64,000 nucleotides of DNA from Cephalotus follicularis (Eukaryota > Streptophyta > Magnoliopsida > Oxalidales > Cephalotaceae), in NCBI GenBank assembly GCA_001972305.1, contig BDDD01000550.1, forward strand, positions 225,116-289,115, read 5' to 3'. This document shows positions 561-54,883 of the stretch, piece after piece. The notes below the pieces were generated by a model. That model was given only the letters and a program-made list of their open reading frames with translations. It did not search any database and was not told where the DNA came from. The translations under genes were made by a program, and so were the position numbers. Position 1 is the stretch's first letter; every line of letters starts with the position of its first letter.

Positions 561-1050
561 CGACGGGTACGAGAGCAGGTAGAAGAGATCGCACGGGGTG
601 GAAGAGAGAGAAAGAAAGAGTCAAAGTTGTGTGTTCAGCAAGTTTCTCTCAAACTATTTATTGTGCTGACTTTCTCTCCTCTTGGCATCAACGTGTACGC
701 AAGGCGTTGAGGTGTACGCGTCTCACATTACGAAATGGCGTCAACGCCAGAGATAATATAAGACAGGTGCGTAGTGTCATTTGTCTTCGCGTCAACGCCA
801 AAACCCCATGGTGTCAACGCGTAAATCCCCTAGTTTTTCCGGTGTTAACGCAATGCTCTCCATAGTGTTAACGCCCAGTGGACTTTCTAGTTTAGACATC
901 GACGTGATGCCCTCTGGGCGTCGATGTGTAAAGCTACTGGTTTTTTCAGTGTTAACACAATCCCTTCACGTCAACGCCCAGCAGCCCAACTAGACATAGG
1001 CGTCAACGCATACTCATAGCGTCGACGCCAAAGACAAAGAACAATCTCTT
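561..1050. repeat. Array of GCGTCAACGC / GCGTCGACGC motifs
   Basis: About a dozen copies of a 10-12 bp near-palindrome of the form GCGTCRACGC lie between 683 and 1030, for example near 734, 788, 811, 840, 865, 917, 967, 998 and 1019. Variants read GTGTTAACGC, GCGTCGATGT and ACATCGACGT. The spacing is irregular, so this is not a simple tandem repeat. A purine-rich GAGAGA tract precedes the array at about 600-625. The open frames across it are low-complexity by-products of the motif. Similar arrays with other arms occur in the LTRs further on. Confidence 0.7.
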
Positions 1051-1804
1051 CTCATTTCCAGAAAAGCCTTCGCATGGAATATTTCATCGTGGCATTGTAC
1101 GGACCTAAATCCATGCAAATGAAATACTCACTAGCCAAGCAACATCTTCCCTGATGTTTTCCTTCCACTAAATGATATGTGTCCCGCCACATATCAACCT
1201 GTTCAAAGTCAGGTAGGACCCAAAAGCATGTCGTTCTCCGGTATGATGATAAATTCCCAGTGCACCCTGTCATCTGGTACGAGCATTCTAACAGTACACC
1301 GACTATCAGACCACCCCCGGTGTGAGTGTCAATCACCCCCCAGATTCGTGTATTACCATGTCTATCAATCATTGTTCGAATAGCTATTCGTTTTATCCAG
1401 TCATCGGCATATGTGTCATGTTTCCCTCGTCATATATGACTCCGATCACAGCCTAGGGTTTGGATGAATGTCACCCCTAGTAGTGCTATGATAGCTATGA
1501 ATCTATGATCGCACTGACACTATCGGCGGACCTCCCACGGGAACCTCTCATTCCCGGTCCACCTATGCCTGATTAGGACTTTTAAGTCTGCAACGTACAT
1601 AGACAAATAGAGTCGGTCACCCTCTGCCCGGGTGTGACGATCCCATCTTGCACACTCGCCCATACATCTCAATGCAGCTCCCACAAGACCCAAAGACAAC
1701 ACTTTTGCCTGTACCTGGCTAGTGCTGGGGAAGGCGGAAATCAAAGTCAAGCAGTCACCACACAATGCATGCCAGTCGCTCAGGTAAAAGGTGACAACGC
1801 AGGC
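1051..1804. other. No recognised gene
   Basis: This segment joins the motif array to the second diverged repeat. It has two modest minus-strand open frames, 1052-1372 (106 codons) and 1520-1825 (101 codons). I recognise no domain in either protein. The base composition is less AT-rich than the DNA to the right. It may be the interior of a non-autonomous element bounded by the two diverged repeats, but nothing in the sequence proves this. Confidence 0.3.
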
Positions 1805-2340
1805 TATAGACCTACTAGTCACCATAGACTATATACTATCGAGACCATAGGAATCCTATTGACATTGGGTATAGACTATCCAAATAGGTTTCCTATTGGT
1901 GGGTCAGTTCAGTGTCTTGCTCTCTAGCATACACCTCACATTCAGCTTTAGGGATTACCCCAATTGGCTATGAGATAACCAACCTCCACTTCTAACCCGT
2001 GAGCAAGATTTACGTGACAAGTCTTCACGGTTCATCAATGGCCTTTAAGAAAGTGAACATATGACTTGAAACATTTGTCACATGGAATAAGGATCTTATT
2101 CTCATAGCCCTCTCGGTAAGAGATCCAACCATTTCAACGTGACATGACGCTATTATGGCATACAATTAATTACTTATAATTAGTCTGTTTCTTTTGGTTG
2201 GTTGGGATGAGCCACATAGCCTTGCCAATATATAAAGATGCACATAGAATATAAGAGGAATTCATAATTGTATTAAATTAAGAGTGTTTATATACAAACG
2301 AGCCATATCATGGCATACAGGGACACTCACAATCCAACAT
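1805..2340. repeat. Diverged direct repeat, copy 2 (unclassified, LTR-like)
   Basis: This is the partner of the repeat at 1-560. Matching landmarks are the GTTCAGTGT block near 1906, the GTGAACATATGACTTGAAA phrase near 2054, and the GGAATAAGG block near 2085. It lies in the same orientation as copy 1, and similarity fades past about 2300. It is probably an old LTR or a fragment of one; no coding potential is seen. Confidence 0.45.
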
Positions 2341-2839
2341 CAAGACCTTTACATGTGTACCCATTGAATGGTCTAAGATGAGGTGACAAAATATCTTGGT
2401 TATGTGTATATATATATATCATAGAAAAATGTTTACATTTTATATCACTTTATTCACCGAATATATAAATTATATTTCATGAATCCATCCATTTGATTAA
2501 ACATTTTATATTTATAAATCTTGTATGTCAATTTCTAAATTTATTTAATATCTCATTATTTCATCAATCGTTAAAAATTTAAATTTTTTTATAATTTTCT
2601 CATTTAAAATAAATATAATTTATACAAATAATTATCTATAAATATCCAGTTGGATTGGAAATTGACATGTGTGATTTATATAAACGGAGCATCAATTTTA
2701 ACAGTTGAATTTATAAAATACAAATTATAGATATAAAAACTATACTAACAAAAAACACAAGTTGTGTTTTATGTCAAAAATAATCACTATCCTCATATAT
2801 ATATATATATATATATAATATATATATATATTATAATAT

Positions 2840-2872
<33 letters not shown>

Positions 2873-5012: not shown

Positions 5013-5089
5013 TATGCCCCCCTCGTCCTTCTTCTCTGGCCTTGGCAGAGGAGGAGGAGCAGAGTTGAGAGTTCTTACCTGGACAGAGC
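5013..5089 (-). other. Element C polypurine tract and internal flank
   Basis: Just inside the left LTR the minus strand reads a purine run (GACGAGGGGGGCATA) ending at the LTR, the expected plus-strand primer of an LTR element. The internal sequence then runs to 5089, where the Tekay copy begins after the target sequence AGAGC, and it resumes at 15579 with AGAGC. Confidence 0.7.
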
Positions 5090-9293: not shown

Positions 9294-9388
9294 TACTATA
9301 AGAGACAACAATAGGATGATCAGATGAAATCACTTTCAATTACAATATCAATCTCTTTTTCAATAACAATAGCATGAATAAGCAAGAG

Positions 9389-12300
9389 CACATATCATGC
9401 AAATCCATTCAGTATATCTCAATCAACGCATTTATATACTTAGCTAGCAGGCCGACCAATGTCTCTGATACCATATTGTAACACCCCGCGCCCACAGGGC
9501 GTACACGTGGCATTACCCTCAATCCAATACACAATACAATGGTCGGGACTAGCAATATAAAAATGCGGAAAACTTTAAAACTTTACAATACGTATCAGTT
9601 GCGGATGATACAAAACATTACAAGCCTTTTCAATACATAACAACCCTTTAAACCGCATTACAATACAGTACATATCCATCTTTCATTACAATATCTCAAA
9701 GCAATACATTCCAAAATCTACTACAATGTCTCACAACCAGCTCAGCGGTACCGAAGCAGTCATGCGATCAATGGTCTTCAGTCCTTCAGTCCACTGCTAC
9801 CTGCTGCCCTACCTATGCCGCACACAAAGGTACAACACAGGCCCACTCCGAAGGATGGGGCTAGCCACACTGGCTAAGCAGAAACCCCATGCAGCATGTA
9901 TGCATGTACAATGTGCAATATCGGTGACAATTTATACAATATCAATGCATGACATGACAAATGTACATGTACAATTGGCGATCAGACTACCCGTATGACA
10001 ATGGCCCATAACAGAGCATACGGATAGGATCTATAACAATCAATCAATCAATAGCAGACATTCAATGGTGGTGCATGAAACACCCAATCAATCAATCAAT
10101 ATCCTATAGAGCATGCGACCGGTGTCAATACAGTGTCAATCAGTTAGCGGTGATCAATCCCACGGAAGGTAGTCCTTCGAAAAGGGTGGGAGATCTATCT
10201 ACGATTCTCAGACTGATCAGGTCTGGAACGCATAGATCTTCCAGCCTATGGCTGGGCCAATAAATCTCGATGAGCTACAGCTGAGAAAGCTACTGATGTC
10301 GTTAGGGAGCTACGGCCCTCAGCGAGCATCAATCGTCAATCAATCGTGCTCGTCAACACATGCTCGTCAGCATGACAATACAGTAAAAGAAACGATCGAC
10401 GGAATAGGTGGACATAGTCAACCTAACATGCCGACGTAAACCACAAGGTTGCTCTATAGGATCCATACAATACAATCAATCATTCAATCGAGTCAGTACA
10501 ACATTAAGTAAAGTCAATGAGTGGTGGTGCCTAATGGAGAAATGGGAACGTGCGTTCATCTTACCGACTTAGACTCACAACAACACTTACGACTTAAGCA
10601 ATCGATCGATGTATCAATACAACGTCGATGCAAGGCCGATAAATGGTGGTGGCTAATGGAGGGATGGAGACGTGCAACCATTTTACCGACTTAGACTCAC
10701 AACAACACTCACGACTCAAGCAATTAATCAATTAATCCAATCATTTAAAACTGTTTTCAAACACTTGAACACCTCAAGTGAGGCTCTAGTCAAGTGGCAA
10801 TGTGAAAAGAAGTTGAAAACTAGCTTTAAAACAGTTAAAAACTCCTTTCAGTACATTAGGCATCGATGTCCTTGGTGAAAGACATCGACTCCTTTTTAAA
10901 ACGGTGGAAAGACGTCGATGTCTTTAAAAGACATCGATGTCTTTCCCTATTTACACATATCATGCAAATCCATTCAGTATATCTCAATCAACGCATTTAT
11001 ATACTTAGCTAGCAGGCCGACCAATGTCTCTGATACCATATTGTAACACCCCGCGCCCACAGGGCGTACACGTGGCATTACCCTCAATCCAATACACAAT
11101 ACAATGGTCGGGACTAGCAATATAAAAATGCGGAAAACTTTAAAACTTTACAATACGTATCAGTTGCGGATGATACAAAACATTACAAGCCTTTTCAATA
11201 CATAACAACCCTTTAAACCGCATTACAATACAGTACATATCCATCTTTCATTACAATATCTCAAAGCAATACATTCCAAAATCTACTACAATGTCTCACA
11301 ACCAGCTCAGCGGTACCGAAGCAGTCATGCGATCAATGGTCTTCAGTCCTTCAGTCCACTGCTACCTGCTGCCCTACCTATGCCGCACACAAAGGTACAA
11401 CACAGGCCCACTCCGAAGGATGGGGCTAGCCACACTGGCTAAGCAGAAACCCCATGCAGCATGTATGCATGTACAATGTGCAATATCGGTGACAATTTAT
11501 ACAATATCAATGCATGACATGACAAATGTACATGTACAATTGGCGATCAGACTACCCGTATGACAATGGCCCATAACAGAGCATACGGATAGGATCTATA
11601 ACAATCAATCAATCAATAGCAGACATTCAATGGTGGTGCATGAAACACCCAATCAATCAATCAATATCCTATAGAGCATGCGACCGGTGTCAATACAGTG
11701 TCAATCAGTTAGCGGTGATCAATCCCACGGAAGGTAGTCCTTCGAAAAGGGTGGGAGATCTATCTACGATTCTCAGACTGATCAGGTCTGGAACGCATAG
11801 ATCTTCCAGCCTATGGCTGGGCCAATAAATCTCGATGAGCTACAGCTGAGAAAGCTACTGATGTCGTTAGGGAGCTACGGCCCTCAGCGAGCATCAATCG
11901 TCAATCAATCGTGCTCGTCAACACATGCTCGTCAGCATGACAATACAGTAAAAGAAACGATCGACGGAATAGGTGGACATAGTCAACCTAACATGCCGAC
12001 GTAAACCACAAGGTTGCTCTATAGGATCCATACAATACAATCAATCATTCAATCGAGTCAGTACAACATTAAGTAAAGTCAATGAGTGGTGGTGCCTAAT
12101 GGAGAAATGGGAACGTGCGTTCATCTTACCGACTTAGACTCACAACAACACTTACGACTTAAGCAATCGATCGATGTATCAATACAACGTCGATGCAAGG
12201 CCGATAAATGGTGGTGGCTAATGGAGGGATGGAGACGTGCAACCATTTTACCGACTTAGACTCACAACAACACTCACGACTCAAGCAATTAATCAATTAA

Positions 12301-12518
12301 TCCAATCATTTAAAACTGTTTTCAAACACTTGAACACCTCAAGTGAGGCTCTAGTCAAGTGGCAATGTGAAAAGAAGTTGAAAACTAGCTTTAAAACAGT
12401 TAAAAACTCCTTTCAGTACATTAGGCATCGATGTCCTTGGTGAAAGACATCGACTCCTTTTTAAAACGGTGGAAAGACGTCGATGTCTTTAAAAGACATC
12501 GATGTCTTTCCCTATTTA
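9389..12518 (-). repeat. Perfect 1565-bp tandem duplication
   Basis: The unit 9389-10953 is followed head-to-tail by 10954-12518. The unit holds the untranslated leader, the primer site and about 1.48 kb of LTR. I saw no difference between the two copies in the stretches compared, and all peptides across them are identical. The duplication is therefore very recent, or it is an assembly artefact. Confidence 0.9.
9462..9473 (-). other. Tekay primer-binding site (first copy)
   Basis: The minus strand reads TGGTATCAGAGA, matching the 3' end of initiator tRNA-Met, three bases from the LTR edge at 9477. A second copy at 11027-11038 comes from the tandem duplication. Confidence 0.9.
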
Positions 12519-13463
12519 TGTGGAGACCTGGCCGAAGACATCGACGTCCTTTAAGAAATGTGTCGATGCGCTTCAATAAAAATAGCCTGAGAATGCACAT
12601 CGATGTTCGGCATCGACGTCTTTCCAGGGGAGAGAGAGCTCGAGGCAAAGACGTCGACTTCTTTGAAAGGCGTCGATGTCTTTGCTGCAGAATCAAGGAT
12701 ATAGCACTCGTATGAGAAAAACATCGACGTCTTTGGGCTAAGGGTCGATGTCTTTTCCGGGAAAAGGTGATTTTGTGCAGAAAATAGGGCCAATCTCGGG
12801 TCAAAATCCAATTTAAAGCCATTATTTGAAAACTAAAGTTTACAATCAATCATTTGAGGTTAGTAAGACTAGTTACAACCTTCCAAAGTCGATTTCAATC
12901 ATTCAATTTAACAATTAGGTCAAGGGTTTGCTATAAACCCTAAAAACCTCAATTCAATAACTCAATCACTCAATTCAATCATGCAATTCAATCAATCAAT
13001 CAATAAAAAAGTAGGCAACTCAGTAAAGAAGTCCTACCTTTCACTGAAGCTACAAAAGTTGAGCTAACGATCGATCAATCGGCTGAAAACGCCCAATAAT
13101 CCGCTACTTTCTTGTTCAATCGGTAAGCCACCACTTGTAATCACTGTCCTTGTCGATGGAGATGAAATTCCGACTGCAAGGGAGGAAGATGGAGGCTCCA
13201 GCTAGAGAGAGAGAGGGAAGGATAAAGAGAGAGAAGAGGAAATGAGAATAATGAGAGAAAAGAGAGAAAGAATTGACTTAAATAGTCGATTCGATCAGCT
13301 CTCTGAAACTCGGCCCAAAATCCAGACTATACATGCATATGATCAATACAATATCAATACGTATAAGAATACCTCAATTAAATACGGTTCAGTAAGGTCA
13401 AATACGGTGCAATACGGTACGATGTAAGCATGAACAGTACAAAAGGGAATTCGGGTCGTCACA
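11042..13463 (-). repeat. Full-length Tekay LTR (2422 bp)
   Basis: It runs from TGTAACACCCC to GGGTCGTCACA on the plus strand, the reverse complement of TGTGACGACCC...GGGGTGTTACA. It sits between a primer site on its left and a polypurine tract on its right, so it serves both sides as in a one-LTR circle or a tandem array. The block 12420-12780 holds the AAAGACATCGATGTCTTT palindrome array. Confidence 0.9.
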
Positions 13464-13478: not shown

Positions 13479-13479
13479 A

Positions 13480-19589: not shown

Positions 19590-19745
19590 GGTCTTTCCGT
19601 GCTCCCCTGGAGGAGGGTTTGAGTGCTCCCCTGGATGAGGCTTTGAGTTCTCCTCTGGAGGAGTCTTTGAGTTCTCCCCTGGAGGAGGCTTTGAGGACTC
19701 CCCCGGAGGAGGCTGTGAGTGCTCCCCCGGAGGAGGCTTTGTTAA
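19590..19745. repeat. 27-bp tandem repeat in element C
   Basis: The unit GAGGCTTTGAGTGCTCCCCTG plus a GAG-rich remainder repeats about five to six times with small changes (AGT/AGG, CCCCTG/CCCCCG). Frames across it give repeated SxPLEEAL-like peptides, but nothing shows that they are translated. Confidence 0.85.
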
Positions 19746-29832: not shown

Positions 29833-30341
29833 GACAGAAGTGTTTAATCATTGTTTTGTTAATGGCTTAATAGTTACTTGTACTAGAGCAAAGTGAATAT
29901 ATTTGAAGTTTTTTGCTAATTCTTTAATAGTTTTTTCATCTAATAATTGAGTATTTTGTTGAGTTTTAGTAATTTTTATTATTTGTTCAATTGTTTGAAT
30001 TCTTTCAGTGAAATTAAATGGGTTAAATGGATTATATTTATAAATTTCTTTGTTTGAAATATTCGGAGGTTTTCAATTTTGCCATTGTTTTATTCTTTCA
30101 TCTAATTCTTTATCCCTATTTGAATTATTACCAGTTTCTGAACCACTAAATGTTCTCGAAGACATAGCCCTACACAATTTATTCATTATTAATGATTTTA
30201 AAATTTTTATCTCACAACGTCTAAAGTATATGAACTTCCTAGTTTAGCGTAGATATCTTTCGATGGTCTCAGTGGGACTTACTCTCCTTCTGCCCTTACC
30301 ACCACAACAACCTACTGTTAGGAAAGATCGAACTCATCCTC
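29833..30341 (-). pseudogene. ECV-1 polyprotein start and leader
   Basis: The first ATG region (MSSRTFSGSET) lies near 30165 on the minus strand, followed by a Lys/Ile/Gln-rich stretch that leads to the movement protein. The leader right of the ATG is shared with ECV-2 in inverted orientation (CGATCTTTCCTARCAGTAGG). Confidence 0.7.
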
Positions 30342-30640
30342 CACCCAAATGGTATCAGAGCCAAAAACTCGATGCAATTATTGATTGTTAACTGAAATTA
30401 AAGTCTAGTTTCTAAACGTCTGGGTATGGGTTGAGTTCGATCTTTCCTAGCAGTAGGTTATTAGGGTTGTAAGAGCAGAAGGAGAGTAAATCCCGCTGAG
30501 ACCATCGGAAGATATCTACACTAAACCAGGAAGTTCATATACTTTAGACGTGGTGAAATAAAAACTTTAAAATCATTAATAATGAATAAATTGTGTAGGG
30601 CTATGTCTTCGAGAACATTTAGTGGTTCAGAAACTAGTTA
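30160..30640. repeat. Inverted repeat at the ECV-1/ECV-2 head-to-head joint
   Basis: Arms of roughly 175 bp (about 30160-30335 and 30425-30645) are near reverse complements holding the polyprotein start and leader of both copies. The roughly 90-bp spacer contains the ECV-2 primer site. Confidence 0.8.
30350..30361 (+). other. ECV-2 primer-binding site (tRNA-Met)
   Basis: TGGTATCAGAGC matches the primer site of plant pararetroviruses. It lies within about ten bases of the left end of ECV-2. Confidence 0.85.
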
Positions 30641-30851
30641 TAATTCAAATAGAGATAATGAATTAAATGAAAGAATAAAACAATGGCAAAATTGAAAATC
30701 TCCAAAGATTTCAATCAAGGAGATTAATAAAAGAATTCAAACAATTGAATAAACTATAAAAAGTACTAAGAATAAACGAAATATTCAATTATTAGATGAA
30801 AAAATAAAGCCAAGTAAAAATTTGAAACTATCAAATAAAAAAGATTTTAAT

Positions 30852-32694: not shown

Positions 32695-32820
32695 ATCTGA
32701 CACTCTTAAAAATAATATTAAAGAATCTCTAGATTTAGAAATAATTTCCCCCACATATTCTGAAACAAAACTCCAAACAATTAGAATTAATAAACCATTT
32801 GAAATCAATAAAGATTTAAT

Positions 32821-33160
32821 AAGAGAAGATTTTCTTCACACAAAATATTTAAGAAAAAGATACAAATTCTTTAAAAAAAATTCTGAAACTGAACAAAATA
32901 ATATTCGAATAGCATGGTTTGAGTACATGACTAAAATTAAGGTTCATGTTATGTTTTTTGATTATTTACCAATTTATATTAATCAACAATAAGAGAAGAT
33001 TTTCTTCACACAAAATATTTAAGAAAAAGATACAAATTCTTTAAAAAATATTCTGAAACTAAACAAAATAATATTCGAACAGTATGGTTTGAGTACATGA
33101 CTAAAATCAAGGCTCATGTTATGTTTTTCGATTATTTACCAATTTACATTAATCAACAAG
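32821..33160 (+). repeat. 170-bp tandem duplication in ECV-2
   Basis: The unit starting AAGAGAAGATTTTCTTCACA repeats at 32991 with a few differences. It encodes the module KYLRKRYKFF...HVMFFDYLPIYINQQ. ECV-3 also holds two copies of this module, with a different spacing. Confidence 0.85.
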
Positions 33161-35234: not shown

Positions 35235-36074
35235 TGTCACACCCGTTTCCTACCGAGATGGATGTGACAATCACATGGTAAGCCTCCTTTCGGAAACCAC
35301 CACGTGATATCTTGAAACCTGAAATTTCTTTAAAAACTATTTCATCAAAAGATAAGTTAAGCTTTCTAAAAACTTGAAAATTTTTCTAACTCTTAAATTT
35401 TTTCGAAAATCGGACATGTAGTATCCGTTTATCGGACTATGCCCCTATAAAGAAAAACGTAGTTTATAACCACACTCCTGAAGGAGGAATCAACAGTTTA
35501 TAATTGGGCTCAGCCCTCAGCAAACCACAATTTAAAACAATAACATGTATGGGTTGGGCTCATCCTCAACCATATTATCAAAGCAAGAAAACTAAATTTA
35601 TAGGGCTCCCTTTAAAAGCAAAATCATAAAATGAAATCATTTATATAAAACATAAGTAAATGCATAATTAAAATATTGATGTAATGCTGCTATGCATGTG
35701 TTAAACCCTGGTAGCATGACCTGCCTTCGTGGTCAATCATCTACAGCAACAAACTTAGCAATCATCCTGTCTCTATCTGGAAGGGAAAGAAAAAGGAGGG
35801 GGTTAGTTCAAATGACTAAGTGAGTAGAAACAAAACATCTCTTGTACATCCATCAAAGAATTGGATGTGCTGAAGAAAATGAGCACAATATAATCAAGTG
35901 TATAAGCAACAAAAATGAAATAATGTAAATCCATAGAAACTAAGCTCAAATCTCAACAACGGAAATAAAAAGGAGCTCTAATATGAATAAGACTACAAGC
36001 ACAAGGTAGAAGAAAATACTCCATGGATGCAAACTCAATGTTCAAGGAAAGAGCTCCATAATAACAACAAGATC

Positions 36075-38907
36075 TGTCACACCCCGTTATTTCGTTACCA
36101 TCATTGACAAGCATATATGGTGATATCAGTATTAAATATACATTCCAACATTTCATTTAACAATATATAACAATATGCGGAAGCAGTCAATAAGCCAGAA
36201 TATATAAAATACAAGCCGTTCGCACGCATCCCATACTACGTGCGGGTAAAGATTACAATTATCCTTATCATAAGGAATACAACAGTAAAACGAGGTATGA
36301 TTCGTTCGTTCATTACAGTATATTAAAATAAATAACAACCTTAAAACGATAAACAGAAGCTTCCAAAGCTTCAGCAGCAAGCTCCGAACGTCCTTGCTCA
36401 ATCTGTAATTGTAGGGGTTAGCCGTTGTCCTCACTTGGCTAAGAAGGAAGATAATGTATGCTGAGGAATATATGAATGCAATATGTATTCAAAATATCAT
36501 TTCAGTGTGCCAATATATAAGCAATCTTGCCAATTGGCCATGAACAGTACATATGCAAAGATACCGCACAAGGGTACAATCAATTGATTCAGTGGTTTGG
36601 GTGTCGCATATCGCTAACTCCTAGCACCAATTGCGCACCGCCTATTTATCACCCTATGCACCGAGGATGATAGATCAGGTAACAGTTACTACCGGCGTTG
36701 GCGGGTAGCTTAACAGTAATTTCTGCAATTGCAGACAGTGGGGGTGATACTCTGGCCAACTCCTGGCACCCAAGATCACATCCATAATCAGTGATATCCT
36801 CCATCACTAACTACGACAGTAACATAGACAATCAATTCAATAAGTACAATCAGTAACAATATTACATATATAAATAATATGCAATATCGAGCGTTTCTTT
36901 CCGAAACATAAAACATTTCAGTAATCGTACGTCTCATGTGAGGAAACGATATCAGTACAGTAGTGGTTTCCAATTTGGAAACAAACAGTAGGTGCCTCTC
37001 ATGTAGGAGGAAACAATAGTTCTTTAACAATAAACGTTCTTTTGAAAGTGATAGTAAATATCATAATCGTGCATATAGCACACAGTTGTTTCAATAATTA
37101 GAATCTGAAACAGTAGGTGAAAACAGTATTTCACAAATCAATAGTTGATAAATCAGTAGTGGATAATTCGGTATTCCTTGAAAATGATATTGAATTATCA
37201 CGATTTTGGATCAAGTCCCATAAATGGTTTTAATCTTGAAATTATCAGTAGTAGTGGTGTTAGTAGCACCAAACAGTAGATATATACTAACGCAAGTAGT
37301 ATATACAGTAACATTAATCAAATCAGTAGATTTTGTAAATCATAGCTTTCACTTGAAATGGTGTTTAAGCCACAAATTGTGCATATAACACATAATTCGT
37401 TCGATCAGTGAAATATCAGTAGTAATGATGTTAACTAACATCAAACAGTATGTATTATATGATGGTAACACACACAAATCAATAACAATGCAAAACAGTA
37501 GCAATTCAGTGATTATTATGCAGTTCCAGCCCAGAACAGTCGACTGCCATCAAGAACCAGCCGGCTGTTGGGTTGAGTAGTCGACTGCTTTGGGTGGCAG
37601 TCGACTGGTTTTGCCCAGAAATGCAGGCAGAACAGTTTTGTGTGATGCAATTCTAATGCCAATCAGTTCAATACAAGGAGAAATTAACATACATGTAATG
37701 CATGAACATATCTTCCAAAACATAACACTACCCCTACCTCAATTTGCTATCCCAAGATCAATTGAATGATCTTTCTCTTTAAAGCTTTCCAAGTCACTTC
37801 CCAAGCTTTCACCAATCAATTCTTTTAAGTCACAACAGTTCAATCTATACATGTTTATAGATACATGCATCAGTTCCAATGGATTCAGTAGCTCTAGAAA
37901 AACTCTAATCAACCATAGTTTTAGCCATTTAGTTCCTTAAGCTTGTTTAACTTCCTTTTACAACATCTCATGCATTTGTGTCCATCAATATCATTTAAGT
38001 GAATAGAAGATGTGTATGTATATTCATAAGGAAGTCAGTAGCTTATTATGGAGCTAACAACAACCTTCTAATCAATTTAGAGATTGTATATTCATTCACT
38101 TGTGCCAAAGTTACATTCCTTATCAATTTCATTCAATCCTAGAAGATGCTAATCATAACCATGTTAACAGAAGATTAAGCATTCTCCTAGATGACTCACT
38201 GTTGGATTATAACATCACATTAACAGGTTCGGATTTGGGACTTACCAGGAGATGTTCAAAGCTTCCCTTTTTCCTTCTTTGAGCTTTAAACTCCAACCTT
38301 CCAATGCAAGTTCTCCAATTAATCCTTCAACAATTCCTTCTTCTTTTAGTGTTTAACAACACTCAAAATCAGTCCATGCACAGATGATATAGGCTCATCA
38401 ATCTGGAATTTCGCCAGAGCCTTCACCTCTCATTTACTCCATTCTCTCCCTCACATGCATCTCTTCATTCCTTGTCATTTCTCACATTTCTCTTCTCAAT
38501 GCTGCAGGTGGCAGGCCTGCAATCTTTGCAGACAGTGCAGAGGACATGAAAGGCATCACATTGCATGTTATGGCAGCTTAGGACACGTAGCCCCCATGCA
38601 TGCCACGCACAAGTTCAGTTGACATCTGCACAGACACATGTTCTGTCGAATTTACAGTCGACTGGATGCATGGGCCAGTCGACTGTCCACCACCCGCCTC
38701 AGGCAGTCGACTGATACCCTGTGTCAGTCGGCTCTCAAGGGTCAAATTAGGGTTTCATAGTTTGGTTTTCACCAAACGAACCTCCATTCATCCCAAACAT
38801 AATTAATCACAGGAGAATATAATAATTGGACAATAACTCAATTAAAATGTATATTTTATTTCAATAATTGGATCAATATACATCAAATCGAAATTGCGGT
38901 TATTACA
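36075..38907 (-). mobile_element. Solo LTR, GTCGAC-array family (2833 bp), TSD AGATC
   Basis: It runs from TGTCACACCCC to GGTTATTACA and is flanked by AGATC at 36070-36074 and 38908-38912. The sister copy is 49351-51956. Two clusters of CAGTCGACTG motifs lie at about 37535-37615 and 38650-38740. By analogy with the Tekay LTR ending (GGGGTGTTACA) it is probably in minus orientation. No internal domain of this family is in the window, so its lineage is unknown. Confidence 0.9.
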
Positions 38908-39105
38908 AGATCCATAGTGAGACCAAGATCCACAAATGTTATCAAAATCCACAAGGAATATATAAAGATCCACAGAGTATATCTATATCTACAAAGGATA
39001 TCAAAATCAACAGGGAATATCAAGATCAGCAAAAGGACATCAAAATCCTCAAGAATATCGAATTCCACAAATGTTAATTCACGAAAAGGAAGCAAGATAC
39101 GCAAG

Positions 39106-42582: not shown

Positions 42583-44997
42583 TGTGATGACCCGAATTCC
42601 CTTTTGTACTGTTCATGCATACTTTGTACCGTATTGGACCGTACTGAATTGTATTGAATTGAGGTATTCTTATACCTATTGATATTGTATTGATCATATG
42701 CATGTATAGTCGGGATTTCGGGCTGAGTTTCGGAGAATTGACCGAATCGACTATATAAGTTAATTCCTTTGTCATTTCTCTCATTCTCACCATTCATCCT
42801 TCGCTCTCTATCCTTCTCCCTCTCTCTCTAGCTGAGCAACCTCCATCTTCCACCATTTCAGCCCCGGATTGCATCTCCATCGACAAGAACAGCAATTGCA
42901 AGGAGTGGATTGGTGATTGAACGACATAGCAACCGATTGAGTGATTGGAAGCACAACTTTTGAAGCTTCAGTGATAGGTAGGACTTCTTTATTGAATTGC
43001 CTATTGCTTTATTGATTGATTGACTGATTTGCATGATTGATTGAGTGATTGAATTGAGTGAATTGAGGTTTTTAGGGTTTATAGCTAATCCTTGACCTAA
43101 TTGTTAATTAAAGGATTGAAATTGAATTTGGAAGGTTGTAACTAGTCTTACTAACCTCAAATGATTGATTGTAAACTTTGGTTTTCAAAGAATGTCTTTT
43201 AATTGGATTTTGGCTTGAGATTGGCCCCACTTTCTGCCTAAAAATCGACTCTGCCCGGGAAAGACATCGACCCTTAGCCCAAAGACGTCGATGTCTTTTT
43301 CATCTGAGTGCTATATCCTTGATTCTGTAGCAAAGACATCGACGTCTTTCAAAAACGTTGACGTCTTTGCCTCGAGATGTCTCTCCCCTGAAAAGACATC
43401 GATGCCGAACAACGATGAGCATTCTCAGGCTGTTTTTATTGAAAAGCGTCGATGCCTTTCTCCAAGGACGTCGACGTCTTTGGCCAGTTCTCTACATAAA
43501 TAGGGAAAGACATCGACGTCTTTCAAAGACATCGATGTCTTTCCACCGTATTAAAAAGGAGTCGATGTCTTTCACCAAAGACATCGACGCTTAATGTACT
43601 GAAAAGAGTTTTTAACTGTTTTAAAGCTAGTTTTCCACTTTTTTTCACATTGCCACTTGACCGGAGCCTCACTTGAGGTGTTCAAGTGTTTGAAAACAGT
43701 TTTAATGATTGCACTGACCGATTGATTGCTTGAGTCATGTGTGTTGCTGTGAGTCTAAGTCGGTAAAATGGACGCACGTTCCCATCCCTCCATTAGGCAC
43801 CACCACTTATCGGCCTTGCTTCGACGTTGTATTGATACATTGATCGATTGCTTGTGCCATGAGTTCCGTTGTGAGTCTAAGTCGGTACGATGGACGCACG
43901 TTCCCATTTCTCTATTGGACACCACCACTTATTGACTTTACTTAAGATTGTATTGACTTGATTGATTGATTGATTGTATTGTATTGTATGGATCCTATAG
44001 AGCGACCTTGTGATTTACGTCAGCATGTTAGGTCAAATTTGTCCACCTATTCCGTCGATCGTTTCTTGTATTGTATTGTCTTGCTGACGAGCATGTGCTG
44101 ACGAGCACGATTGATTGACGATTGACGCTCGCTGAGGGTCGTAGCTCCCTAACGGCATCAATAGCTCCCTCAGTTGTAGCTTATCGAGATTGTATTAGCC
44201 CAGCCATAGGCTAAAAGATCTATGTGTTCCAGACCTGATCAGTCTAAGAACAGTAGGTAGATCTCCCACCCTTTTTGAAGGATTACCTTCCGTGGGATTG
44301 ATCACTGCTAACTGATTGACACTGAATTGACATCGGTCGCATGCTCTATAGGATATTGATTGATTGGGTGTTTCATACACCACCATTGAGTGTCTACCAT
44401 TGATTGATTGATTGATTGTTATAGATCCTATCCGTATGCTCTGTTATGGGCCATTGTCATACGGGTAGTCTGATCGCCAATTGTACATATACATTTGCCA
44501 TATCATGCATTGATACTGTACACTGCACATTGATATTAAATTGATTGTCACCGATATTGCACATTGTACATGCATACATGCTGCATGGGGTTTCTGCTTA
44601 GCCAGTGTGGCTAACCCCATCTTTCGGGGTGGGGCTGTGTTGTACCTTTGTGTGCGGCATAGGTAGGAGAGTAGGTAGCAGCGGACAAAAGGACTGAAGA
44701 CTCGAATGATCGCATGACTGTTTGGGTACCGTAGGACTGGTTGTGAGATTGTAGTGAAGTTGGAATGTACTGTATCGTAATACTGTATTGAAGGATTGAT
44801 AATGTATTGAAAAATACTGTATTGTAAAAGATTTGCATTGTACTGTATGGATGGATTTGTATTGTATCTTCCGCAAGTGTTATATATTTCAAAGTTTTAA
44901 GTTTTTCGCATTTTCATATTGCTAGTCCTGACCATTGTATTGTGTATTGGACTGAGAGTAATGCCACGTGTCCGCCCTGCGGGCGCGGGGTGTTACA
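42583..44997 (+). repeat. Element A 5' LTR
   Basis: It begins TGTGATGACCC and ends GGGGTGTTACA. The AAAGACRTCGAYGTCTTT array lies at about 43258-43595. A TATA-like TATATAA lies at 42752-42758, 169 bp from the LTR start, which would leave over 2.2 kb for R and U5. Confidence 0.92.
42752..42758 (+). promoter_or_regulatory. Tekay LTR TATA-like box
   Basis: TATATAA in the context CGACTATATAAG is conserved at the same distance from the LTR start in the 3' LTR (52640-52646). A CT-rich stretch follows about 30-80 bp downstream, as is common in plant 5' leaders. Confidence 0.6.
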
Positions 44998-45000
44998 GTA

Positions 45001-46430: not shown

Positions 46431-46431
46431 T

Positions 46432-47772
46432 ATGAGTTCTGCTCCGACAGTTCAGGCTAGAGTGTTTGCTATGGAACCGAGTGCTGCAGTAGGGTCAGAT
46501 GTTGTGATTGGAGGTACCATTCGACTCTTTCAGCTTCCAGCGCAGGTTCTTATTGATCCGGGTTCATCCCATTCATTCATTGCATTGCATTTTTTCTCCC
46601 ATGTTGGGTTGAGACCCGAGTACCTTCCTTTCTTTATGGAGGTATCCACACCTCTCGGTGAGTCAGCGACCACCGATCGAGTGTGTAGAGATTGTATTAT
46701 TGAGATTGATGATCGTTGCTTGTTAGTCGATCTTATTGTTTTACCGATGGATTGCCTAGATGTGATTCTTGGCATGGATTGGTTGTCTGCTAGATTTGCT
46801 CAGGTGGATTGTCATCGGAAAGTAGTGGTTTTCAGTCCTCCGGGACGACCACCTTTTCGGTTTCTTGGCACCTTAGAGCCATTGTTTGTTCCGATGATTT
46901 CGGCTTGTCATGTGGACAGATTGTTACGACAGGGATGCCAGGGGTTTCTGACACATGTGCTCGATATTGACAGATGGCGGCCGAAACTGGAAGATATTCC
47001 AGTGGTTTGCGAGTTTGGAGATGTTTTTCCTCGGGATTTGACGTCGTTGCCGCCAGACAGAGAGATAGAATTTGTGATTGATTTGATACCAGGAACTGCA
47101 CCGATTTCTCGAGCACCGTATCGAATGGCACCGATAGAATTGAAAGAGTTAAAGATACAGTTACATAATCTTCTCGACAAAGGTTTTATAAGACCTAGTG
47201 CTTCACCCTGGGGAGCACCTGTTCTTTTTGTCAAGAAGAAAGATGGATCGCTCCGTATGTGTATTCACTACCGACAGCTCAATAAAGTTACAATGAAGAA
47301 TAAGTACCCTTTACCACACATTGACGAGCTGTTCGACCAGCTTAGAGGAGCGACAGTGTTTTCTAAACTCGACTTGAGATCGGGCTACCACCAGTTGAAA
47401 GTCAGACCGGAGGATATTCCAAAGACGACTTTCAGATCAAGATATGGCCATTATGAGTTCTTAGTTAAGCCTTTTGGTGTGACTAATGCTCCTGCGGCTT
47501 TCATGGACCTGATGAACCGAGTATTCAGACAGTATTTGGATCAGTTCATTGTAGTGTTCATTGACCACCTATTGGTCTATTCCAGGACCGATGAGGAGCA
47601 TGCCCAACACCTCTACATTGTATTGCAAACTTTGAGGGATCATCGACTGTATGACAAATTCGACAAGTGCGAGTTTTGGCTATCGGATGTTGCTTTTCTA
47701 GGGCATATTGTTTCTGGTGACTGTTTATCAGTGGATCCATCGAAAGTAGAGGCAGTGAAAGATTGGAAATGA
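46432..47772 (+). pseudogene. Element A protease-RT fossil
   Basis: One open stretch of 446 codons carries the aspartic-protease region ([16 protein letters not shown] near 46540) and most of the [61 protein letters not shown] and [19 protein letters not shown]. The family enzyme copies element RNA into DNA inside the particle. It continues the gag layout and leads to RNase H. Confidence 0.9.
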
Positions 47773-49350
47773 CCGATGAATGCTTCCGAAGATCGCAGCT
47801 TCTTGGGTTTAGCAGGGTATTATCGTCAGTTTGTTGAGGGATTTTCCCGTATTGCAACACCATTGACCAAATTGACACAGAAGAACGCTGGCTTTATATG
47901 AGATAGTGATTGTGAAAGAAGTTTTCAAGAGTTGAAAGACAGGTTGATTTCCACTCTTGTCCTAGCCTTACCAGACGGGAACGAAGACTTTGTTGTATAC
48001 ACCGATGCTTCTGGAAAGGGGCTTGGTTGTGTTCTTATGCAATATGGAAAAGTGATTGCATATGAATCGAGGAAGATCAAACCACATGAGGAAAACTACC
48101 CAGTGCATGACTTAGAGCTGGCGGCCATTGTCTTTGCTCTTGGGAAATGGCGCCACTACCTTTATGGGACCAAGTTCACAGTTTTTACTGATCATAAGAG
48201 TTTGAGATATCTCTTTTCACAGAAGGAATTGAACATGAGACAGAGAAGGTGGTTTGAGCTTCTTAATGATTATGATTGTGACATTGAATACCATCCTGGA
48301 AAAGCAAATGTCGTTGCAGATGCATTGAGTCGCAAGCTATCTTGTATGACTCTTTCCCATATTCAGGTGCAACCTGCATTGCTTGACCGGAATAGAGATG
48401 CACAGATAGTGGATATTGAATTACAGAAAGTGGCTACTGCTATTGATGAAGGATTGAAACCCGATTTCTCTCAATCTACAGATGGGTTATTGAGATACAG
48501 GAACATAATTTGCATTCCAGCCGATAGCGAGTTGAAGGAAGAGCTTCTTTCTCAAGTTCATAAATCTCGTCTCTCTGTCCATCTAGGGATTACGAAGATG
48601 TATCGTGACCTAAAACTTAGCTATTGGTGGGTTGGCATGAAGAGAGAAATCGCAGAGTTTGTATCGAGATGCCTCACTTGTCAGCAAGTTAAGGCAGAGC
48701 ACCAGAGACCGGCAAGTTTGCTTCAGCCTTTGCTCATTCCTGAGTGGAAATGGGAACATATTACCATGGATTTCGTGTCTGGGTTGCCTCTGACTCGTGA
48801 CAGACATGATAGTATATGGGTTGTGGTCGATCGACTCACGACGTCGGCCCACTTTCTACCGATTCGGATGACTTATTCTAGAGAGAAGTTGTTCAGATTG
48901 TTTATGAAAGAGATTGTTAAAGCACATGGAGCTCCTGTCAGCATTGTTTCGGATCGAGACTCTCGCTTCACTTCCAGGCTTTGGAGGAAGTTACAGGTAG
49001 CTATGGGTACAGAATTGAGTTTCAGCACTGCTTTTCATCCCCAAACAGATGGTTTGTCCGAAAGGACCATTCAGACATTGGAGGACATGCTTCGAGCATG
49101 CGTACTCGACTTTGGAGGTAGTTGGGATGACCACTTGCATTTGATTGAGTTCTCATATAACAATAGTTATCACGAGAGCATACAGATGGCTCCCTATGAA
49201 GCCCTATATGGTAGGAAGTGTCGATCGCCAGTTTGTTGGGATCAGGTCGGTGAAAAGAGTATTTTGGGGCCAGAGATTGTACAGATTACCGCAGAGAAAG
49301 TGAAATTGATAAGAGACCGACTGATTATTTCACAGAGAAGACAGAAAACC
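47773..49350 (+). pseudogene. Element A RNase H-integrase fossil (upstream part)
   Basis: RNase H begins near 47950 (VVYTDASGKGLGCVL, and YHPGKANVVADALS near 48290). Integrase follows with its HHCC zinc region (SRCLTCQQVKAEHQRPA) and core landmarks WVVVDRLTTSAHFLPI, VSDRDSRF, FHPQTDGLSERTIQTLEDM and EFSYNNSYH. The sequence is cut at 49350 by a solo LTR. Confidence 0.9.
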
Positions 49351-51956
49351 TGTCACACCCCATTATTTCATTTACATTAGACAAGCATATATGGTGATAT
49401 CAGGAATAAGCATAATAATCCAGCACTCTCATAACAAATCAAATACATAAGCGGAAGCAGTCATCTGGATTATAAAACATAAGTCATCCGCACGCATCCC
49501 ATACTACGTGCGGGTACAAACCAACCAAATTATCCTTATACATAAGAAAGTACAACCGTAACACGGAGCGTGATCCGTTCGATACAACACAATACATCAA
49601 AAGAAATAACAAGCTTAAGATAGAAAGTAGAAGCTCTCCAAGCTTCGGCAGCAATCTCCAAATGTCCTTGCTTAATCTAAAATTGTAGGGGTTAGCCGTT
49701 GTCCTCACTTGGCTAAGTAGGAAGATAATGCATGCTAAGGAATATATGGATGCAACATGTATGATACTTTATATTGAAATATCATTTAAGTATGCCAATA
49801 TATAAGCAATCATGCCAAGTGGCCATAGACAAAACAATGCAAGAATACCGCTCAAGGGTACAATCAATTCATACAGTGGTTTGGGTGTCACATGTCGCTA
49901 ACTCCTAGCACCAACTGCGCACCACCTATCTATCACCCTACACTCCGAAGATGATAGATCTGGTAACAATTACTACCAGCGTTAGCGGGAAGTTTAACAA
50001 TAAGAACTGCAATGCAGACAGTTTTGGGTGTGTACTCTAGCCAACTCCTAGCACATAGGACCATCTCCGTTAGCCAGTGACATCTGCCATCACTCGACTA
50101 ATCGGCAATAACAAGGACAATCAATTAAATCATTTCAGTTCAATAGTAATATCACATATATATATAATATGCAATATTAAGTGTTTTCTTTAGAAACATA
50201 TAACAATTCAGTGATCGTACATCTCATAAGAGGAAAACGATATCAATACAGTAGTGGTTTCCAATTGGGAAACAAAACAGTAGGTACCTCATATAGGAGG
50301 AAAATCAGTAGTTCGTTTAGCAATAATCTTTCATTTGAAATGATAGTTAATATCATAAATTGTGCATATAGCACATAGTTTGTTCAATTTGTGTAAATAT
50401 GAAATCAATAGGGTTTGTAACAGTCACTAGTATATACCAATTAACAATAGCATATACGGAAACAATATCAAAACAGTAGCAATTCAAATTAAGGTCAAAC
50501 AGGTCCTATATCAGAACTTTAACCCAGGACAGTCGGCTGTTCTCAAGAACAGTCGGCTGTTTTGGTTGAGCAGTCGACTGTTTTCCCTTGACAGTCGACT
50601 GGATGCATTGAGTAGTCGACTGTCATGAAGAACAGCCGACTGCTTCTGCCCAGAAATGAAGACAGTAGCAGGTTGTCTAAATTTCAATGTCCAATTTCTA
50701 ACCAATCCAACACATGCAATCATACAGAAAATAAACATACATGATATGCATAAAATATCTTCCATAAACATGTCATTACCTCTACCTCAAATGAAATCCC
50801 AAGATCAATTGGAATTGATCTTTCTCGTTGAGTTTCCAAGCTTTTCACCAACAATCTTTTAATTCCAGCAGGTTCAATCTATGCATGCATGTTTACGGAC
50901 ACATGCATTAGTACCAGTAGGTTTCAGTAATTCCTCATGACAACTACAACTCAAATAGTGGTTATTCACTAGTTCATTAAGTCTATAAATTTCCCTTTTT
51001 CAACTTACCTTTGAACTCTTTGTCAATTATATTCCACTTAACTGGTTGACAGTAAATGTATATATATCAGAAAGCCTATATCATGACAACTAATATCAAC
51101 CACAATTCGAATTAGAGTTGTTAACAATCCTCAAAGCTTCATGCTCATGTTTCTTCCTCCCTTTCATTATCATTTCAATTCAATTCTAGAAACTGTTAAT
51201 CCTTTACCATGTTAATAGAGGATAACTAACCTTCCTAGTTACATCATTAACAGTACTATTTAAGCAGGGAGCTCGAATTTGAACTTACCACGAGAAGTCC
51301 AAAGCTTCCAAGTCCCCTTTTGCACTCTAAGCTTTCAATTCCCACTTGGAGCTCCAATCCATCAACATGCAAGCTCCAATGATTTTCCAACCACTCTCCT
51401 CTATCTCTAGTGTTTTTCTAACACACACACACACAGCTCTAACAGCTGATATAAAGCTTTGAATTCGCCAGGTCCATTACTCACTCTTCTCTCCTTTCCT
51501 TCTCTCTCTCACATGCATCCCTCTTTCTCACCTTTCTCTCTTGACTTTTCAGTTTGCAGGTTGCAGGTGGAATAGAAGACATGCAAGCACTCTATTTTGC
51601 ATGCTCTGGTAGCTTACTGTCACGCATGACACCTGCCCCTCATGCAATGCCCTCTTTGTTCAGTCTCACAGGCATGCACAGACAACTGTTCTGTACCGAT
51701 CCAGTCGACTGTCTTCAACAGGCAGTCGATTGTCCACTCTCGCCTCGGACAGTCGACTGTTCCCCTGTGATAGTCGGCTATCTATGGCTGTTTTAGGGTT
51801 TCTTAAGATTGATACTTCATCAATTGTACATCCATTCATACCAAGCAATTACCAATCACAGAAATTATTATAATTGAACAAATAATTCAATTAAAAATGT
51901 ATATTTATTTTAACAATGGAATTCAATATACACTAATTGAATTTGCGATTATTACA
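49351..51956 (-). mobile_element. Solo LTR, GTCGAC-array family (2606 bp), nested in element A
   Basis: It runs from TGTCACACCCC to CGATTATTACA. Its flanks are AAACC (49346-49350) and AAAGC (51957-51961), a TSD with one mismatch. It resembles 36075-38907 throughout, including the GGGGTTAGCCGTTGTCCTC phrase. CAGTCGACTG clusters lie at about 50528-50645 and 51700-51782. It entered element A and is therefore younger than it. Confidence 0.9.
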
Positions 51957-52455
51957 AAAGCTATGCTGATGTTCATCGCAGAGGCTTGGAGTTTAGTATT
52001 GGTGACCATGTTTTTCTCAAAGTGTCGCCCACTAAAGGAGTCATGAGATACAGGAAGAAAGGAAAGCTTTCTCCTATTTTTGTTGGACCTTTTGAGGTAT
52101 TGGATCGGATTGGCCGACTTGCTTACAGGCTTGCCTTGCCTCCAGCATTGTCGGGAGTGCACGATGTGTTCCATCTTTCTCAGTTGAGGAGATATGTTCG
52201 AGATCCTTCACACATCATTGAGTATGGTTAGATTCAGTTGGAACCTGACTTATCGTTTACAGAGACTCCTATACAGATTGTTGACCGACAGATCAGAGTA
52301 TTGAGGAACAAGACCATCCATTTGGTTAGTGTTCTATGGCAGTATCATGGTTCTATGGAGCGCACCTGGGAGCGCGAGGATGATATGAGAGAGACATATC
52401 CTTTCCTATTTGATTGATTGATCGTTTGACCGATGAATCTGGGGACCAGATTCCT
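51957..52455 (+). pseudogene. Element A integrase end with GPY module and chromodomain
   Basis: The sequence resumes with the YADVHRRG region, then the GPY/F module (FVGPFEVLDRIGRLAYRLALPP) and a group II chromodomain-like tail (QIVDRQIRVLRNKTI, YHGSMERTWEREDDMRE) near 52266-52413. In the family the chromodomain is thought to steer integration to heterochromatin. This tail supports the Tekay/Del call. Confidence 0.85.
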
Positions 52456-52470
52456 TTAAGAAGGGGAGAA
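52456..52470 (+). other. Element A polypurine tract
   Basis: TTAAGAAGGGGAGAA ends at the 3' LTR start. Confidence 0.9.
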
Positions 52471-54883
52471 TGTGACGACCCGAATTCCCTTTTGTACTGT
52501 TCATGCATACTTTGTACCGTATTGGACCATACTGAATTGTATTGAATTGAGGTATTCTTATACCTATTGATATTGTATTGATCATATGCATGTATAGTCG
52601 GGATTTCGGGCTGAGTTTCGGAGAATTGACCGAATCGACTATATAAGTTAATTCCTTTGTCATTTCTCTCATTCTCACCATTCATCCTTCTCTCTCTATC
52701 CTTCTCCCTCTCTCTCTAGCTGAGCAGCCTCCATCTTCCACCATTGCAGCCCCGAATTGCATCTCCATCGACAAGAACAGCAATTGCAAAGAGTGAATTG
52801 GTGATTGAACGGCATAGCAACCGATTGAGTGATTGGAAGCTCAACTTTTGAAGCTTCAGTGATAGGTAGGACTTCTTTATTGAATTGCCTATTTGTTTAT
52901 TGATTGATTGACTGAATTGCATGATTGATTGAGTGATTGAGTGATTGAATTGAGTGAATTGAGGTTTTTAGGGTTTATAGCTAATCCTTGACCTAATTGT
53001 TAATTAAAGGATTGAAATTGAATTTGGAAGGTTGTAACTAGTCTTAATAACCTCAAATGATTGATTTTAAACCTTGGTTTTCAAAGAATGGATTTAAATT
53101 GGATTTTGGCTTGAGATTGGCCCCATTTTCTGCCTAAAAATCGACTCTGCCCGAGAAAGACATCGTCCCTTAGCCCAAAGACGTCGATGTCTTTTTCATC
53201 TGAGTGCTATATCCTTGATTCTGCAGCAAAGACATTGAAGTCTTTCAAAGACGTCGACGTCTTTGCCTCGAGATGTCTCTCCCCTGGAAAGACATCGATG
53301 CCGAACATCGATGCGCATTCTCAGGCTATTTTTATTGAAAAGCGTCGACGCCTTTCTACAAGGACGTCAACGTCTTTGGCCAGTTCTCTACATATATAGG
53401 GAAACACATCGACGTCTTTCAAAGACATTGACGTCTTTCCACCGTTTTCAAAAGGAGTCGATGTCTTTCACCAAAGACATCGACGCTTAATGCACTGAAA
53501 GGAGTTTTTAACTGTTTTAAAGCTAGTTTTCCACTTCTTTTCACATCGCCACTTGACCGGAGCCTCACTTGAGGTGTTCAAGTGTTTGAAAATAGTTTTA
53601 ATGATTGCACTGACCGATTGATTGCTTGAGTCATGAGTGTTGCTGTGTGTCTAAGTCGGTAAAATGGACGCACGTTCCCATCCCTCCATTAGGTACCACC
53701 ACTTATCGGCTTTGCTTCGACGTTGTCTTGATACATTGATCGATTGCTTGTGCCATGAGTGTCGTTGTGAGTCTAAGTCGATACGATGGATGCACGTTCC
53801 CATTTCTCCTTTGGACACCACCACTTATTGACTTTACTTATGATTGTATTGACTTGATTGATTGATTTATTGTATTGTATTGTATGGATCCTATAGAGCG
53901 ACCTTGTGATTTACGTCGGCATGTTAGGTCGACCTTGTCCACCTATTCCGTCGATCGTTTCTTGTATTGTATTGTCTTGCTGACGAGCACGATTGATTGA
54001 CAATTGACGCTCGCTGAGGGCCGTAGCTCCCTAACGACATCAGTAGCTCCCTCAGTTGTAGCTCATCGAGATTGTATTGGCCCAGCCATAGGCTGGAAGA
54101 TCTATGTGTTCCAGACCTGATCAGTCTGAGAACCGTAGGTAGATCTCCCACCCTTTTTGAAGGATTACCTTATGTGGGATTGATCACTGCTAACTGATTG
54201 ACACTGAATTGATATCGGTCGCATGCTCTATAGGATATTGATTGATTGATTGGGTGTTTCATACACCACCATTGAGTGTCTGCCATTGATTGATTGATTG
54301 TTTGTTATAGATCCTATATGTATGCTCTGTTATGGGCCATTGTCATACGGGTAGTCTGATCGCCAATTGTACATATACATTTGCCATATCATGCATTGAT
54401 ACTGTACACTGCACATTGATATTATATTGATTGTCACCGATATTGCACATTGTACATGCAAAGATGCTGCATGGGGTTTCTGCTTAGCCAGTGTGGCTAA
54501 CCCCATCTTTCGGGGTGGGGCTGTGTTGTACCTTTGTGTGCGGCATAGTTAGGGCAGCAGGTAGCAGCGGACAAAAGGACTGAAGACTCGAATGATCGCA
54601 TGACTGCTTGGGTACCGCAGGACTGGTTGTGAGATTTTAGTGAAGTTGGAATGTACTGTATCGTAATACTGTATTGAAGGATTGATAATGTATTGAAAAA
54701 GACTGTATTGTAAAAGATTTGCATTGTACTGTATGGATGGATTTGTATTGTATCTTCTGCAAGTGTTATATATTGCAAAGTTTTAAGTTTTCCGCATTTT
54801 TATATTGCTAGTCCCGACCATTGTATTGTGTATTGGATTGAGAGTAATGCCACGTGTCCGCCCTGCGGGTGCGGGGTGTTACA
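52471..54883 (+). repeat. Element A 3' LTR
   Basis: This 2413-bp sequence runs TGTGACGACCC...GGGGTGTTACA and is followed by TACCT. The palindrome array lies at about 53150-53490. Frames inside it are non-coding by-products shared by all copies of the family. Confidence 0.92.

Follow-up and report, generated by a model that had tools for sequence, protein, structure and literature searches.

In a 64,000-nucleotide stretch of the Cephalotus follicularis genome (C550:225116-289115 on contig BDDD01000550.1, hereafter the window, from an assembly of 1.577 Gb), long terminal repeats (LTRs) of three retrotransposon families carry arrays of palindromes built on a GTCGAC-like core and spaced by turns of the DNA helix. 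We propose, with a probability of roughly 0.55, that these arrays are cis-regulatory and serve a DNA-binding factor, working as the palindromic repeats of Sirevirus LTRs do, but built on a different core and found outside the genus Sirevirus. Each array would be a row of LTR sites to which a factor, most likely the host's, binds as a dimer or cooperatively; a site would be a palindrome centred on GTCGAC, with family-specific arms (GC, CA/TG or AAAGAC/GTCTTT) and some tolerated changes of the centre. With a site spacing of mostly two helical turns, and also of three, four or five, the bound proteins would share one face of the DNA and act jointly on the LTR promoter. Repeated binding on one helix face would explain the core, the palindromy, the spacing and, in family 1, the position of the array. 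Family 1, from Ty1/copia, and families 2 and 3, which are related to each other and belong to Ty3/gypsy, appear to use the same core, and its being common to copia and gypsy suggests convergence or transfer rather than inheritance. The data themselves show the core, the arrays, their spacing, the excess across the genome and the TATA box beside the copia array; we infer that the arrays are bound by protein, that one protein binds them all, that it is the host's and that it activates.

An earlier note on this DNA had named nine arrays, all of which we inspected by sequence. Together with the features tied to them, they are:

683-1030, minus strand: family 1 array, GC arms with GTCGAC, GTTGAC and GTTAAC cores, in a probable Ty1/copia LTR with its 5' end at 2339 on the minus strand.
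654-662, minus strand: TATA-box-like AATAAATAG adjoining the family 1 array downstream (ATAAATAG exact in 25/30 copies).
10908-10944, minus strand: partial family 2 array of two palindromes, additional to the nine, within a duplicated LTR part and at its end.
12420-12780, minus strand: family 2 array, AAAGAC-RTCGAY-GTCTTT, in a chromovirus-type Ty3/gypsy LTR, with TATA-like CATAAATAG within the array.
27360-27830, minus strand: family 2 array holding a 115-bp tandem duplication (27443-27690).
43258-43595, plus strand: family 2 array with TATA-like CATAAATAG within it.
53150-53490, plus strand: family 2 array with TATA-like ACATATATAG within it at 53390-53399; the element's coding frames lie at 46432-49380 on the plus strand.
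49351-51956, minus strand: solo LTR of family 3 that interrupts the pol region of a family 2 element; its 5-bp flanks, AAACC/AAAGC, match imperfectly; assigned to Ty3/gypsy via the internal regions of its relatives.
51700-51782, minus strand: family 3 array 1, CA-GTCGAC-TG, with conserved TTATATCA ~250 bp downstream.
50528-50645, minus strand: family 3 array 2, CA-GTCGAC-TG and CA-GCCGAC-TG, with conserved TATATACT ~95 bp downstream.
38650-38740, minus strand: array 1 in a second copy of family 3, for which the similar stretches fall within 36074-38908.
37535-37615, minus strand: array 2 of the same second copy.

To measure enrichment, we compared each named array with 1,000 dinucleotide-shuffled versions of itself, counting the core-like hexamers GTCGAC, GTTGAC, GTCAAC, GTTAAC, ATCGAT, ATCGAC and GTCGAT. 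The family 1 array holds 11 (shuffle mean 0.79); the family 2 arrays hold 12 in 12420-12780, 13 in 27360-27830, 11 in 43258-43595 and 9 in 53150-53490 (shuffle means 1.08-1.18); and the four CA-GTCGAC-TG arrays hold 3 each (shuffle means 0.14-0.33). No shuffle matched the observed count in 8/9 arrays, and 1/1,000 did so in 50528-50645. The earlier note's GTCGAC-like arrays are thereby borne out at all nine stretches, far above the dinucleotide shuffles that it had itself proposed as a check, and the test supports a core shared by LTRs of different families, including across the copia/gypsy divide. When only strict GTCGAC or ATCGAT was counted, 683-1030 had a single site, which was not significant (155/1,000 shuffles reach the same) because that array consists mostly of GTTGAC and GTTAAC; the strict count was equalled by 11/1,000 shuffles in 43258-43595, by 4/1,000 in 51700-51782 and by none in the remaining six. 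Perfect palindromes of 18-20 nt centred on ATCGAT or GTCGAC stand at 10927, 12492, 27439, 27730, 43525 and 53246. Across the window, GTCGAC occurs at 3.9x its dinucleotide expectation and is exceeded by GACGTC (4.7x), partly because GACGTC overlaps the AAAGACGTCGACGTCTTT units, and by CGATCG (4.1x).

The excess extends to the whole genome. Triples, defined as three cores with 10-40 bp between cores and counted per strand, number 101,716 for GTCGAC versus 478 for its reversed control CAGCTG; other palindromes gave 308 (CTCGAG; reversed control GAGCTC, 4,748) and 3,542 (ATCGAT; TAGCTA, 215). GTCGACGTCTTT plus AAAGAC was counted 5,339 and 5,393 times on the two strands, versus 15 and 14. Taken together, the shuffle tests and the control-palindrome counts reject a chance origin of the arrays. 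Eight further loci with AAAGAC arms fall, by their array parts, into five similarity groups (L001; L002; L003 and L004; L005, L008 and family 2; L006 and L007), or at least four, because L002 and L003, separated by 1.2 kb of the same contig, may belong to a single element; L004 carries a gag fragment. Among 166,600 unselected flank bases of 60 loci, four stretches contain at least three GTCGAC, at least one of which (L049) is inside the matched LTR itself.

We then measured the spacing of the cores from start to start. Genome-wide, GTCGAC pairs number 373 at 15-17 bp, 166,339 at 20-22 bp, 5,964 at 25-27 bp and 7,931 at 30-32 bp, and GC-armed pairs on the forward strand number 4,930 at 20-22 bp versus 236 at 25-27 bp. 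In the window plus the eight AAAGAC-arm loci, GTCGAC forms more pairs at 20-22 bp than any other of the 64 palindromic hexamers (12, with none at 15-17 or 25-27 bp); ATATAT (11) and TATATA (10) come near it, yet are frequent at other distances too. Spacer segments were taken from 77 of 100 rows among the GTCGAC triple matches listed, giving 125 distinct segments, which came down to 71 once segments differing by no more than 25% were merged; with arm classes assigned by a simple ad hoc rule, 30/48 CA-type, 9/17 GC-type and 3/6 other segments among the matches listed are 20-22 bp long. For phasing, we used the gaps of seven representatives, one per set of related loci (families 1-3, L001, L002, L004 and L007), leaving out gaps >60 bp and one of the two 21-bp gaps of L002. 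The 48 gaps range from 19 to 56 bp, with 27 at 19-23 bp; none of 20,000 random sets was as well phased at 10.5 bp, and the best period was 10.3 bp. The 20 gaps of at least 25 bp, taken alone, were matched in phase on the helical repeat by 34/20,000 random sets. The helical spacing of GTCGAC cores is new here; a limited literature search turned up neither this spacing nor any gypsy LTR with GTCGAC arrays.

The arrays were also placed relative to TATA-like boxes, which likely mark the LTR promoters. In family 1, the last upstream core ends ~25 bp before ATAAATAG, and one further site lies past the box. Family 2 has a TATA-like box inside the array in 4/5 stretches: CATAAATAG or CATATATAG in those at 12, 43 and 53 kb and TATACAAATAG twice in that at 27 kb, with no TATA-like box in the stretch at 10 kb. 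In family 3, TTATATCA (28/30) follows array 1 by ~250 bp and TATATACT (27/30) follows array 2 by ~95 bp, and in L001 CATAAATAGGG lies ~60 bp downstream of the array. The earlier note had offered three roles for the arrays, namely binding by one host factor, RNA dimer or packaging loops, and targets shaped by CpG methylation. Of these, binding by one putative factor gains most, from the helical spacing in two arm types and the TATA box beside the copia array; the note's interpretation as a whole is partly supported.

Which elements carry the arrays bears on how independent they are. The family 1 LTR begins with TGTTGG at 2339 on the minus strand, and in relatives it is preceded by AAGTGGGAGAT (in one, GTGTGAGAT) and the end of a pol frame. 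That pol end resembles the part behind the Pfam RVT_2 (copia) domain of L001 (34% over 59 amino acids, E 1e-09), and it is on this pol end in relatives that we tentatively assign family 1 to Ty1/copia; taken alone, the pol end gave no usable Pfam or NCBIfam match and no assignment from solved structures. The family 2 LTRs (arrays at 12420, 27360, 43258 and 53150), called Tekay in the earlier note, adjoin Ty3-type gag, protease, reverse transcriptase (RT), RNase H and integrase frames. For family 3, 5/30 relatives of the LTR end beside the complement of a tRNA-Met-type primer-binding site (PBS), and relatives carry Ty3-type proteins, so that Ty3-type gag, RT/RNase H and integrase are present for both families. 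Between families 2 and 3, integrase is 70% identical over 102 amino acids, RT pieces are 67% and 76% identical and gag 37-44%. The earlier note's "three unrelated families" hence holds for copia against gypsy and fails for families 2 and 3, whose similarity in gag, RT and integrase leads us to reject three fully unrelated families. Its remark that the LTR backgrounds share no likeness stood up, since motif-masked LTRs of the three families give no alignment better than with one LTR reversed, and a single ancestral LTR block for all three is accordingly not supported. Without masking, a single 29-bp match (E 0.007) links the LTRs of families 2 and 3, and these two may descend from an ancestral LTR block that has otherwise decayed.

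Several other features were recorded. Within a family 2 LTR, 9389-12314 is a 1,565-bp tandem duplication that looks recent, since a compared 300-nt piece is identical between the copies. Inside the palindrome array at 27360-27830, a 115-bp unit is present in 2.2 copies with 99% matching (27443-27690), suggesting that arrays grow by duplication. On the minus strand, 19913-21817 is a 634-amino-acid frame with a Pfam gag domain, beside a 24-bp tandem repeat at 19599-19741. An inverted repeat occupies 30037-30731, with 311-nt arms that are 90% complementary and 73 nt between them, and the AT-rich tandem repeats at 32818-33159 (170-bp unit) and 57022-57454 (223-bp unit) are related to each other. 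L001:1380-1710 is an LTR with an AAAGAC-type array and CATAAATAGGG; its end, GGGCGTTACA, abuts a copia pol frame, apparently as a nested insertion.

To follow individual sites, we compared 28-30 copies per site, both sets of 30 including the window's own copy; 40 of 8,124 family 1 candidates and 40 of 17,962 family 3 candidates from the DNA searches were scored, and these candidate numbers are not family sizes. Of the 13 family 1 sites that precede the TATA box, 4 have GTCGAC as their commonest form, 6 GTTGAC and 3 GTTAAC, and the one site downstream is also most often GTCGAC. GTTGAC contains the W-box core TTGAC. At the ten family 3 sites, the commonest form is GTCGAC at 7 and GCCGAC at 3 (in 22/29, 21/29 and 18/28 copies). 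The variants had been read as CpG-decay forms: decay is visible, but with GTTGAC or GTTAAC commonest at 9/13 upstream sites, these forms do not seem to be just post-insertion decay of single copies, and decay leaves the spacing unexplained. Six family 1 sites are without the central CpG on one strand, and at all six the commonest form is GTTGAC in transcript sense; GTCAAC is commonest at no family 1 site, so the sites may have direction.

Variation was compared at sites that match the core in half of the copies or more, a choice that favours low variation. At these sites, non-CpG core bases vary less than neighbours within 25 bp in family 3 (0.041 versus 0.114; 15/20,000 random draws as low) and in family 1 (0.027 versus 0.084; 440/20,000; 10 positions at five GTCGAC-type sites). 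With these caveats, constraint on the core bases is suggested, as support and not proof. Under the same site choice, motif CpGs also vary less than other CpGs (0.167 versus 0.247 in family 1; 0.092 versus 0.206 in family 3), as might be expected if the palindromes were read or protected by the methylation machinery, for host silencing or element anti-silencing, instead of serving as activator sites. Every full core contains a CpG, GC arms add two more, and in Arabidopsis VANDAL elements it is repeated short motifs that the anti-silencing protein VANC targets (PMC5735166). The central CpG, however, is missing in most copies at 9/13 family 1 sites, and we consider a methylation role improbable, the least favoured of the alternatives weighed here.

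Several results count against binding by a factor as proposed. High-copy families dominate the genome-wide counts, which do not equal independent events, and the control CAGCTG has a smaller 20-22 bp peak of its own (273 at 15-17 bp, 1,742 at 20-22 bp, 241 at 25-27 bp and 146 at 30-32 bp). Among the matches listed, 10/48 CA-type segments are 27-29 bp long and off phase; L001 alone is unphased (7,428/20,000); and the family 1 spacers are mutually similar (1/2,000), which suggests that a two-site unit of ~53 bp was duplicated in tandem, so that the regular spacing partly reflects duplication. The first TATA-like box of family 3 is 250 bp from array 1, with array 2 ~800 bp beyond that box; the site choice in the variation test favours low variation, the family 1 result resting on 10 positions; and the three arrays (of nine) that were folded as RNA all fold strongly (z -10.0, -6.2 and -8.7 versus dinucleotide shuffles, none folding as well).

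The spacer similarity raises the prospect that the arrays have no common function. They would then stem from tandem duplication inside LTRs and descent within related gypsy elements, the copia array being independent with a loosely similar core and the abundance reflecting copy number. The relatedness of families 2 and 3 (integrase 70% over 102 amino acids), the borderline spacer likeness in family 3 array 2 (90/2,000), the 115-bp duplication inside 27360-27830 and the lack of strict GTCGAC enrichment in 683-1030 itself all suit such an origin. Yet other palindromes are far rarer in arrays, family 1 sites are most often GTCGAC at 4/13 upstream sites plus one downstream (30 copies), GC-armed pairs share the spacing peak, and spacers in family 2 (two comparable pairs) and L004 (three) show no similarity beyond chance, the comparable pairs being few. 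We regard this origin as unlikely.

The strong folding would fit a route through RNA, in which transcribed palindrome clusters form hairpins that lead to small-RNA silencing, or act as RNA dimer or packaging elements, the spacing being a by-product. The LTRs of maize Sireviruses have palindrome clusters that are hotspots of small RNAs (PMC5311732, PMC10760457), and the folding here is compatible with a small-RNA role. On the other hand, any row of inverted repeats folds stably, loop-less palindromes alone make poor hairpins, and hairpins need no 10.3 bp period over gaps of 19 to 56 bp. Since the family 1 array precedes the TATA box, a transcript started at that box would not carry it at its 5' end, so dimer or packaging loops lose weight. 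An RNA route accordingly seems to us about as doubtful as the absence of a common function.

Returning to protein binding, a stronger form is that one plant trans-acting factor reads the two-turn-spaced GTCGAC palindrome, that two superfamilies independently built the phased array, and that a large share of the genome's LTR promoters comes under a single regulator, activator or silencer; we consider this less likely than not. If one factor does read the arrays, it would be a common switch for very many retrotransposon copies of the 1.6-Gb genome. It would then become testable how unrelated mobile elements converge on one regulator and why plant LTRs repeatedly come to hold arrays of palindromes, and the two-helical-turn spacing would provide a simple quantitative handle for finding the protein.

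Known systems offer partial parallels. VANC targets in Arabidopsis VANDAL elements are, like the arrays here, dense rows of a short motif in a non-coding part of a mobile element; they belong to DNA transposons, and their motif, YAGTATTAY, keeps one orientation and is recognised by a protein that the element itself encodes (PMC5735166), whereas ours lie in LTR retrotransposons, so the likeness is one of analogy. The maize Sirevirus hotspots share palindrome clusters in the regulatory LTR part and strong folding (PMC5311732, PMC10760457), and differ in that the present arrays have another core and belong to other element lineages. A third parallel is RYCGAC, a site like the C-repeat/dehydration-responsive element (CRT/DRE), listed as a barley CBF site (CBFHV; PMC4482647; also PMC4916175); in maize, CBF/DREB sites were enriched in elements associated with responses to cold, heat and salt (PMC4287451). 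GTCGAC reads RYCGAC on both strands, and 10/10 family 3 sites fit by their commonest form, whereas ATCGAT, GTTGAC and GTTAAC do not, so that 4/13 family 1 upstream sites fit and 9/13 do not. A palindromic, helically spaced array also goes beyond the CRT/DRE definition in the available descriptions (PMC4482647, PMC4916175), and a CBF-type factor as candidate reader is a lead only.

The closest comparison is with Sirevirus LTRs, for which Bousios et al. 2010 (PMC2829016) describe palindromic, CpG-bearing repeated motifs (RM) upstream of the TATA box and term them Sirevirus-specific. Those RM include CGGTCGACCG of a Vitis element, centred on GTCGAC, and ACAATCGATTGT of Tnd-1, centred on ATCGAT, and share the signature CGG-CCG, Tnd-1 excepted; a Sirevirus-type criterion there is a TATA box 37 bp on average after a CpG island. 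The arrays here lack CGG-CCG, their GTCGAC forms having GC, CA/TG or AAAGAC arms, and two of the families, 2 and 3, belong to Ty3/gypsy. Against the 37 bp, the TATA distance is ~25 bp in family 1, within the array in family 2 (4/5) and ~250 and ~95 bp in family 3. Family 1 is also without the pol-LTR linker bearing multiple polypurine octamers AGGGGGAG at loci L037 and L026, where the pol stop stands ~15 nt before the LTR, with one near match, AGTGGGAG, in 700 nt of L037. As to the Sirevirus PBS junction CA/ATTGG-TATCAGAGC and the C-rich integrase signal, the family 1 LTR 3' end was not found in the loci examined. The helical spacing measured here is not met in the available part of the Sirevirus description (PMC2829016). 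Family 1 nevertheless shares with Sireviruses the AT/TG attachment at the 3' LTR, with GGGAGAT or GTGAGAT followed by TGTTGG in the six relatives listed, and the arrays resemble RM in being a high-copy, CpG-bearing palindrome in the LTR, clustered in family 1 upstream of the TATA box.

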